Assembly: GCA_030830245.1 (NCBI GenBank)
Contig: JAURNJ010000175.1
Location: forward strand, 1-16,066
Direction: 5' to 3'
DNA from: Novosphingobium sp.
Lineage (GTDB): Bacteria; Pseudomonadota; Alphaproteobacteria; Sphingomonadales; Sphingomonadaceae
DNA: 16,066 nucleotides
Position numbers and translations under genes: made by a program. The notes under the pieces were generated by a model, which did no database searches, was not told the DNA's origin, and saw only the letters and a list, made by a program, of their open reading frames with translations. Shown here piece by piece: positions 6,712 through 12,579 of the stretch (its first letter is position 1; each line of letters begins with the position of its first letter).

Positions 6712-7224
6712 ATGAAGGCAATTGTTTCGCGCCTGTGCACCATTGCGCTGTGCGCCACGCTTCTCGCGTCGTGTTCCGAACAGCGCGTGGTTCCGACTCC
6801 CAGACCGAGTCCGACCCCTGCCCCGCTGCCGCCACCCCCACCCCGACCGATTGTCGACTGGCAGCACGCCCCGGTCACTCCTGGCGACTGGGTGTGGAGC
6901 AATGCAGGAGGTCGCTCGCAGGCGAGCTTTGCCGGCGGCCTGTTGCAGCTCGTCTGCGATCGCACCAGCAACACCGTAATCGTATTGCGGCGCGGCAATG
7001 CCGATGGCGCAGTGCCCATGACGATAGCCACCTCTGCAATGACCCGCACAGTCAGCGCCAGCGGTTCGGCAGGTGGCATCGCTTTGTCGCTTGCCGCGCG
7101 CGATCCGCTGCTCGATGCCATGGCCTTCAGCAGGGGCCATTTCGCGCTGGAAGTGGCGGGACTCGGCGCGATCTACGTGCCCAGTTGGCCCGAGGTCAGC
7201 CGGGTGATCGAGGACTGTCGCTGA
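6712..7224 (+). CDS. proline-rich lipoprotein of unknown function
   Basis: A 170-aa secreted lipoprotein I do not recognise. Residues 1-20 form a signal peptide ending in the lipobox LLASC, with the lipidated cysteine at C21; serine at +2 suggests outer-membrane sorting. A proline-rich, natively extended linker follows (about 28-46, PTPRPSPTPAPLPPPPPRP), then a compact domain beginning VDWQHAPVTPGDWVWSNAGGRSQASF. That domain has alternating hydrophobic strands and a late cysteine (C169) that could pair with C60s-region cysteine in LQLVCDR. The pattern 'TPGDW.W' plus an ALEVAGLGAIYVPSW ending suggests a small beta domain with an invasion-associated-locus-like or DUF-type fold, but this is only a guess. 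RBS AGGGA lies just before ATG 6712. Divergent from tlyA; followed by the long leader region of ilvE. Confidence 0.72.
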   Translation: MKAIVSRLCTIALCATLLASCSEQRVVPTPRPSPTPAPLPPPPPRPIVDWQHAPVTPGDWVWSNAGGRSQASFAGGLLQLVCDRTSNTVIVLRRGNADGAVPMTIATSAMTRTVSASGSAGGIALSLAARDPLLDAMAFSRGHFALEVAGLGAIYVPSWPEVSRVIEDCR

Positions 7225-7350
7225 GGGCTTGGCGCGGCTTCCGGGCCGCCTTCCGGGGGATAACCCGCGAAACCTCGATTCTGACGCCAAAAAAAATCTT
7301 TGCAAGACTTGTTGTGCAGCGCGGAATGATTCACACATTGGCGCAAGGCA

Positions 7351-7392: not shown

Positions 7393-7411
7393 TGTCTTGG
7401 CTCAACAGCGC

Positions 7412-7426
7412 GAAAGGAGGTGATCC
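7412..7426 (+). promoter_or_regulatory. extended Shine-Dalgarno, complementary to about 15 nt of the 16S rRNA 3' end
   Basis: GAAAGGAGGTGATCC matches the complement of the usual bacterial 16S 3' tail (GGAUCACCUCCUUUC) over its whole length, far beyond the 4-7 bases typical of the other genes here. GGAGG is seven bases from ATG 7428, ideal spacing. It decides the start of the 18-codon ORF. The sequence after it diverges from 16S, so it is not an rRNA fragment. Confidence 0.7.
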
Positions 7427-7427
7427 G

Positions 7428-7484
7428 ATGTCTCATGGTTCAGCACAGAGGTCGGTTATCCGCAGCGCGGAGCATTATCGCTAA
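7428..7484 (+). CDS. 18-codon ORF with maximal ribosome site (leader peptide or microprotein)
   Basis: ATG to TAA gives an 18-residue peptide, MSHGSAQRSVIRSAEHYR: basic and serine-rich, with no membrane segment or signal peptide. The case for translation rests on the 15-base Shine-Dalgarno at perfect spacing and on the hairpin and terminator that follow. It is upstream of ilvE, but only one Val and one Ile codon are present, so a classic branched-chain amino acid attenuator peptide is not obvious; three Arg and four Ser codons are more prominent. It could be a stand-alone microprotein gene, a leader peptide whose translation controls read-through into ilvE, or an RNA whose real function is ribosome binding. 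I do not recognise the peptide. Confidence 0.5.
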   Translation: MSHGSAQRSVIRSAEHYR

Positions 7485-7541
7485 ACATCTTATTGAAGCG
7501 ATAGAGGCTTCGTGAGCGGCGCTTCCGGCCGCTGACCATGC

Positions 7542-7575
7542 GAAGGGCCGTGCCGGGTTTCCGGTGCGGCCCTTC
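7542..7575 (+). terminator. strong terminator-like hairpin between the 18-codon ORF and ilvE
   Basis: A 15-base stem, GAAGGGCCGTGCCGG (7542-7556) with CCGGTGCGGCCCTTC (7561-7575), closes on a GTTT loop; the two central TG/TG positions pair as G-U wobbles. The following CTCATTTCTG is only mildly T-rich. The stem is the strongest in the window and sits 75 bases before ilvE. It may end the small upstream transcript or act as an attenuator for ilvE. Confidence 0.65.
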
Positions 7576-7649
7576 TCATTTCTGCGTTCGGCCCCTTTTA
7601 TCGCGACACAAAAGCCCCTATCGGAAATTGCAGAGGGAGCCGAAAGATT

Positions 7650-12504: not shown

Positions 12505-12579
12505 TGGGGTGTCGCCAAGTGGTAAGGCACCGGCTTTTGATGCCGGCATTCGCAGGTTCGAATCCTGCCACCCCAGCCA
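12505..12579 (+). tRNA. tRNA-Gln (anticodon UUG)
   Basis: A 75-base cloverleaf including an encoded CCA end. The acceptor stem is TGGGGTG (12505-12511) with CACCCCA (12569-12575), then discriminator G and CCA. The D stem is GCC/GGC. The anticodon stem is CCGGC/GCCGG around the loop TTTTGAT (12535-12541) with anticodon TTG at 12537-12539. The T arm is GCAGG-TTCGAAT-CCTGC. It reads CAA and, by wobble, CAG. In sphingomonads glutaminyl-tRNA is usually made through Glu-tRNA(Gln) and GatCAB; that is lineage knowledge, not seen here. It lies between yghU and the oxygenase-like gene on the same strand. Confidence 0.97.

Follow-up and report, generated by a model that had tools for sequence, protein, structure and literature searches.

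The element described here lies on the forward strand of the window, the whole 16,066-nucleotide stretch of Novosphingobium sp. DNA that was analysed (contig JAURNJ010000175.1), between an open reading frame (ORF) for a lipoprotein-like protein and ilvE, from which it is separated by a terminator and 74 nt. The lipoprotein-like ORF (6712-7224) encodes 170 aa, beginning MKAIVSRLCTIALCATLLASCSEQ..., and no family was found for it in Pfam or NCBIfam. A tRNA-Gln (TTG) is also present, at 12505-12579. The short ORF that opens at an ATG (7428-7484), and the hairpins and terminator-like stem (7542-7575) that follow it, are present as the first-pass annotation of this DNA had described them (Table 1).

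Table 1. Features of the element in the window, with the evidence for each.
Feature	Position	Strand	Basis
-35-like region: CAAGACTTG box (7303-7311), overlapping TTGTTG (7309-7314)	7303-7314	+	Motif conservation; putative -35 role
GATTC (GANTC, 7328-7332), overlapping -10-like CACACA (7332-7337)	7328-7337	+	Motif conservation; putative CcrM site
CAACA, A/C-rich leader adjoining the Shine-Dalgarno (SD) block	7403-7407	+	In 45 class elements, columns -9 to -4 read CAACAA in the majority
Match to Rfam RF01867 CC2171, model positions 1-159	7404-7572	+	57 bits (E 1.3e-11), below the gathering score of 75
GAAAGGAGGTGATCC, complementary to 15 nt of the 16S 3' tail	7412-7426	+	Sequence, 16S tail of genome G002, duplex energy
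18-codon ORF MSHGSAQRSVIRSAEHYR; ATG 7428-7430, stop TAA	7428-7484	+	ORF kept in the set
Helix P1, 5' strand, codons 3-6	7434-7444	+	Class-wide covariation
GGTCGG	7450-7455	+	Invariant columns, alignment A1; both pairings predicted
Hairpin TATCGCT/AGCGATA over the last ORF codons and first stop base	7476-7503	+	Compensatory changes, columns 74-81 / 100-107
CGCTTCC, possible partner of GGAGGTG (7416-7422) in an alternative fold	7520-7526	+	RNAalifold consensus of A1
Helix P1, 3' strand, just 5' of the terminator	7531-7540	+	Class-wide covariation
Intrinsic-terminator-like hairpin, 15 bp, then TCATTT	7542-7575	+	Sequence, fold, compensatory changes

The 16S-complementary block and the distribution of the element

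The block that precedes the ORF pairs perfectly, over 15 nt, with the 16S tail of the same-genus genome G002 (GGATCACCTCCTTTCT), which upholds the complementarity to the 16S 3' end proposed in the first-pass annotation; the 16S itself gave no match in the draft genome that contains the element, which spans 2.14 Mb and is 72% complete, and was matched in two of 31 same-genus genomes. The predicted pairing energy is -29.9 kcal/mol, as against -4.8 to -11.7 at nine other starts in the window, for each of which the stretch tested had ATG at its end. The 14-mer AAAGGAGGTGATCC has a single occurrence in this draft assembly, where the arithmetic of 4^14 would predict approximately 0.016 occurrences. 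The distance of seven bases to the ATG claimed at the outset is true for the GGAGG core, whereas the 15-mer stops one base before the start codon.

The full 15-mer was found in 140 of the 145 Sphingomonadales elements, many of which were fetched by an exact 28-mer, and in 29 of the 45 elements of the class-wide set (16/45 being without it). In this class set, the inner columns of the block are partly fixed by the way in which the set was found, and the changes include A to G (6/45) and C to T (5/45), which preserve G-U pairing with the 16S, as well as C to G (2/45), which does not. The first base of the block is G in 42/45 class elements, and the preceding base is free (C21, A10, G7, T7).

Of 37 same-genus genomes searched with a 211-base query, 36, its own included, have the element, the exception (G026) providing a chance match alone (E 0.75). 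The same query returned only short, chance-level matches from 24 genomes of the order's other families (best E 0.0036). The core AGGAGGTGATCC precedes the ATG in 28/37 same-genus genomes, and among the other nine, the five loci that were read have GGTGACC or GGTGACCC in place of the full 15-mer; the remainder of these nine are G012, G023, and G024, which carry the element, and G026. The conservation in close relatives, which had been put forward as a check on the original proposal, is found both in these genomes and in the recurrence of the full 15-mer. Scanning named genomes for an exact 28-mer returned at least 119 stretches, 80 of them by name, in Novosphingobium, Sphingomonas, Sphingobium, Erythrobacter, and relatives. 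Partial matches to the start region were found on plasmids of Azospirillum, Sphingobium, and Skermanella, and no record of the phage collection covered 80% of the query (E 8 for the best 20 rows). One genome contains a second partial match (G010:C76:5551-5657; query 62-172, 82% identity), whose aligned part begins after the SD, and another, G072, has two copies of the element, of different subtypes (C1:805104-805255 and 2921849-2922077).

At the Rfam gathering threshold, the tRNA was the only family recovered from the window, and CC2171 (RF01867) surfaced at the E-value threshold. Matches to mir-4776 on both strands of the terminator, at the same E-value threshold, were taken as chance inverted-repeat matches and rejected. 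The RF01867 match covers the full length of the model, and includes both the 5' block and the closing helix before the terminator, but its 57 bits do not reach the cut-off of 75, and the element is therefore treated here as a diverged relative, rather than as a formal member of the family. At E <= 0.001, RF01867 was found in 39/190 alphaproteobacterial genomes, in seven of them over the cut-off, and Caulobacter vibrioides was the sole match among 14 control genomes. The pattern AGGAGGTGRTCNNRTGTCTCAT, with one mismatch allowed, was present in 38/385 class genomes, as against none for the reversed control, and a longer pattern, with two mismatches, in 36/299 genomes of the phylum, all 36 of which were among the 86 alphaproteobacterial genomes and none among the 213 others, a split that was counted by hand from the listing. 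Across the Alphaproteobacteria, the features that recur are the 16S-complementary block, the start codon, the terminator, and, from codon 3 onwards, a covarying helix.

The region upstream contains a promoter-like motif. The palindromic box CAAGnCTTG is nearly invariant in the Sphingomonadales set, being exact in 136/144 elements and present with at most one mismatch in 140/144 (144 of the 145 elements had enough upstream sequence), in comparison with a mean of 8.4 and a maximum of 15 shuffled upstreams at the latter stringency. A GANTC follows the box by 12-20 nt in 94/140 elements (shuffles: mean 4.9, maximum 12), is exactly at +16 in 79/139 distinct stretches (N = T35, C27, A16, G1), and is absent within 32 nt of the box in 37/140. 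In the window, the GANTC occupies the putative -35/-10 region, as in a CcrM/GcrA-linked promoter, and looks like a CcrM site beside a -10 element. The GcrA family search, which also matched the Sulfolobus control, found GcrA in 19/21 genomes, and did not find it in the incomplete draft genome of the element itself or in G012. In Caulobacter, the transcription start sites with a GANTC between -10 and -35 are described as a temporal cluster of cell-cycle sites (PMC4287350).

Coding signal and RNA structure

The elements collected number 190 distinct sequences, which start with ATG in 164 cases, GTG in 25, and TTG in one, although the search expression fixes [AGT]TGTC, and so imposes these counts in part, while leaving the stop codon free. 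The ORF has exactly 18 codons in 132/145 Sphingomonadales elements, and the other 13 have 15-20 codons or are cut by the end of the contig (L069). In 96 distinct 18-codon ORFs, related by descent, the stop is TGA (44), TAA (41), or TAG (11), and never TGG (Fisher p 0.0008). Both the start codon, partly imposed by the search, and the stop codon are thus maintained, as would be the case in a small protein.

The variation within the ORF follows a different pattern from that of a protein under amino-acid purifying selection. In the 96 distinct ORFs, the mean entropy at codon positions 1, 2, and 3 is 0.80, 0.83, and 0.56, respectively, with the third position the least variable, and in 494 near pairs, the synonymous share is lowest in frame 0 (247/1577 vs 404/1519 and 443/1495 in the other frames), with no synonymous excess in the Sphingomonadales ORFs. 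These two features indicate that it is the RNA, rather than the peptide, that seems to be constrained. The third positions of codons 2-4 are also invariant. Pointing in the opposite direction, frame 0 has the mildest amino-acid changes (mean BLOSUM62 -0.81 vs -1.44 and -1.17), in a comparison where stops were scored -4, which lowers the means of the other frames. Frame 0 has no internal stop in any of the 96 ORFs, whereas the other two frames have stops in 25/96 and 3/96, and given how few are found in the last of these (frame 2), the openness of the ORF alone is weak evidence. In the class set, the four near pairs have 2/0, 1/3, 1/3, and 1/7 synonymous/nonsynonymous codons, and the peptides vary widely from family to family, the start codon recurring across the Alphaproteobacteria as the peptide changes. 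The simplest reading of these comparisons is an ORF of fixed extent that is kept, with a largely free peptide and a constrained RNA; the missing synonymous excess says nothing directly on translation.

Three class members of the Azospirillum type (L062:3019-3195, L064 near 3017, and L190 near 1515) have the same start region followed by an ORF of 56-58 codons, which includes a hydrophobic, signal-like stretch (ALFGLAALLTAGVA in L062) and is possibly a real small secreted protein, the next longest ORF having 35 codons.

The region 7400-7585 of the window has a fold energy of -91 kcal/mol (z -5.6), and folds with a helix, P1, which links codons 3-6 to the sequence just before the terminator. Within the 45 class elements (L233 being of the Sphingomonadales type, and L194 having been dropped as too short), the anchored P1 score is 13.5, in comparison with 9.6 when the 3' strands are permuted (maximum 10.9 of 300). 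In an alignment of 43 elements, that is, 42 class stretches and the window element, with L062, L064, and L190 excluded as too long, the seven P1 pairs are paired in 77.4% of cells (60.5 in shuffles), with 44 double-changed cells (15.3 +/- 3.4), a score of 0.426 (0.177 +/- 0.024), and 25 additional kinds of pair (16.0 +/- 1.9). No shuffle among the 500 reached any of these four values, and all the slid versions of P1 are lower in both cells and score, although the seven pairs with a double change were equalled by 105/500 shuffles. This alignment was built without structure, its sequences are related, and P1 itself was suggested by the same data. An earlier count, based on 31 chosen rows (alignment A2), was more favourable (87.6% paired), and omitted L188, L189, L191, L192, L195, L210, L234, L237, L239, L241, L242, and L244, several of which have a weak P1. 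Examples of the two strands include CATTG/CAATG, CATGG/CCATG, CATGAAT/ATTCATG, and AATGAGAT/ATCTCAT. In the Sphingomonadales set, the anchored permutation (15.71 vs 15.67) is uninformative because P1 hardly varies there. An unanchored search for P1 found no excess over shuffles. Single-sequence folds contained P1 in 10 of 18 elements, as judged by eye.

A second fold may compete with P1. For 25 elements of the group to which the window element belongs, RNAalifold preferred a different structure, with GGAGGTG paired to CACTTCC and CCGAT to GGTCGG, and the GGTCGG is predicted to pair either with CCGGCC (7525-7530), lengthening P1, or with the CCGAT at the start codon. Across the class set, the SD has better internal partners, often a GGATC..CCTC within the ORF, than it does after dinucleotide shuffling, with a mean z of -1.36 (s.e.m. 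0.18) and 33% of elements at 0.05. In the Sphingomonadales set, this internal anti-SD signal is weak (z -0.43; 4% at 0.05), as is the pairing of CGCTTCC with GGAGGTG by duplex statistics. Two mutually exclusive folds are plausible from these predictions, although unproven. Some Sphingomonas loci, including L096, L101, and L107, have an extra hairpin-like stretch, GGGGRGTATYCTCYYCCA..CAACG, between the stop codon and the 3' strand of P1, which was not seen in the Novosphingobium loci inspected.

Interpretation of the element and its rivals

Sequence comparison thus identifies an A/C-rich leader, a 16S-matching block, a start codon, a kept ORF, the covarying helix P1, and a terminator. The preferred reading of this arrangement is a ribosome-sensing or ribosome-engaging RNA. 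In its full form, this reading proposes an independently transcribed small RNA, diverged from CC2171 and selected to engage ribosomes, in which the peptide is secondary, and it is held tentatively, at a little under an even chance. The RNA would be a transcript of its own of approximately 230 nt, starting near 7345 and ending near 7580, which would recruit 30S subunits very strongly and translate its ORF, with selection acting on the occupancy by the ribosome rather than on the peptide. This occupancy might serve to titrate free ribosomes or to sense them; alternatively, it might determine how the RNA folds and how stable it is, through the choice between P1 with the SD exposed and a fold in which the SD is sequestered. 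Counting against this reading are the same-genus and class elements without the full 15-mer, the mild amino-acid changes of frame 0, the weak internal anti-SD signal of the Sphingomonadales set, and the results for P1 in the unanchored search and the single-sequence folds. Of the short, highly ribosome-bound RNA first envisaged, the comparisons support a conserved short RNA with an extreme ribosome-binding site, a promoter-like motif of its own, and a terminator.

A more elaborate version appears distinctly improbable. Here, the RNA family would read the state of the ribosome pool, timed by methylation in the Sphingomonadales, with the translation of a free-sequence peptide as the switch. The 16S tail would compete for the block with an internal mimic (GGATC...CCTC), located inside the ORF in many class members, so that free 30S subunits would switch the closed fold of the RNA to an open one, and in the Sphingomonadales, the synthesis of the peptide would be timed by DNA methylation at the GANTC.

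The RNA might instead be a small mRNA whose 18-aa peptide acts in the cell, a rival that is unlikely, and in favour of which stand the strong SD and conserved stop, the ORF open in 96/96 distinct sequences, the mild amino-acid changes of frame 0, and the 56-58 aa proteins with a hydrophobic stretch in the Azospirillum-type members. The nearly stop-free frame 2 reduces the weight of the open ORF, however, and the peptides that differ so widely among families, together with the invariant third positions of codons 2-4, fit a constraint on the RNA. The microprotein gene of the first-pass annotation is thus weakened by the lack of synonymous excess in the Sphingomonadales set, and retains the kept stop codon in its favour. 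That same stop codon argues against a non-coding RNA or sponge, in which the GGAGG-rich block would base-pair with CCUCC-type loops of other sRNAs, or with mRNAs, and translation would be incidental. This rival is doubtful to a similar degree. In its favour, Rfam files RF01867 as an sRNA, sRNAs with anti-SD loops are reported from the alphaproteobacteria (PMC3927594), and CrfA is described as an RNA sponge of Caulobacter (PMC12559287), but the conservation of the block takes in GATCC, which is superfluous for pairing with CCUCC loops, and the block fits the 16S tail. Schrader 2014, which counts against the preferred reading, describes the Caulobacter ncRNAs as mostly intergenic and untranslated, although with two predicted ncRNAs that are translated.

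The neighbouring genes bear on the two remaining alternatives. Loci of at most 8 kb were surveyed in 80 named cases, and the lipoprotein-like gene is upstream on the same strand in 65/70 loci with 0.9 kb there, which would be expected if the RNA derived from the 3' UTR of this gene (6712-7224), an origin that is nevertheless very unlikely, since a conserved promoter-like motif lies between the gene and the element, and the class-wide loci have no such linkage. The idea of a leader that controls ilvE did not hold up. While ilvE is downstream in the window and lies within 1.2 kb in 22 of the 61 loci with 1.5 kb of sequence there, the other 39 are without it, the terminator and 74 nt intervene in the window, and the promoter-like motif upstream of the element also counts against a leader. 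No conserved regulated gene directly downstream, of the kind expected of an ilv-type attenuator, was found in these loci, nor is there a branched-chain codon run in MSHGSAQRSVIRSAEHYR, as the first-pass annotation had itself observed. Across 45 class-wide loci (1.5 kb flanks, or approximately 3 kb for four plasmid loci), no family was common to more than three, which makes a cis leader of any one gene unlikely. The ilvE attenuator was rejected on synteny and codon content, and is considered extremely unlikely.

Relationship to known systems

The RF01867 family is already known, and the ribosome-engagement reading was not found in the literature searched. The family is catalogued as an sRNA, and the literature found that names RF01867 gives no function for it. 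If the ribosome-engagement reading is true, its members would represent a test case for RNAs selected for the engagement of ribosomes, with an ORF that is maintained but indifferent to its peptide. The discovery paper for CC2171 is reportedly Landt et al. 2008. The window element shares with CC2171 the 5' block GAAAGGAGGUGAUCC-RUGUCUCAU, the closing helix, and the terminator, and differs from it in the strands of this helix (CATGGTTCAGC/GCTGACCATG rather than CATTGTC/GACAATG), in the start codon (ATG rather than GTG), and in the promoter-like motif with its GANTC, as observed for the Sphingomonadales elements. The Caulobacter RNA CCNA_R0051 is probably the CC2171 RNA, on the basis of gene numbering. 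It is reported as a 209-nt RNA with its own promoter, located between CCNA_02253 and CCNA_02254 (PMC6237742), features that the window element, with its proposed length of approximately 230 nt and its promoter-like motif, would share. It is also listed as G1-expressed, with no CcrM site given for its promoter region in that listing (PMC5988900), whereas most Sphingomonadales elements carry a GANTC, which suggests that control through this motif may be specific to this order. RF01867 is also the family given for a Mesorhizobium RNA, MH_s33 (PMC5596092), and in Caulobacter, SD sites are reported at a minority of starts, with 75.4% lacking one (PMC4117421).

The dual-function sRNA rnTrpL/peTrpL of S. 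meliloti is likewise described as a small RNA whose short ORF is translated (PMC10117765), translation of the window ORF being assumed here, but rnTrpL is leaderless and corresponds to the trp attenuator, whereas the SD of the window element is extreme and no cis target is evident for it. In E. coli, the protein bS21 is described as one that would sterically hinder extended SD pairing (PMC13009471), which weighs against the preferred reading. The extended SD-aSD helices described in Staphylococcus aureus (PMC13009471) are similar to the pairing proposed here in the additional SD pairs near the start codon, although these are two extra pairs in ordinary mRNA, in comparison with the 15 possible pairs in the one small RNA of the window.
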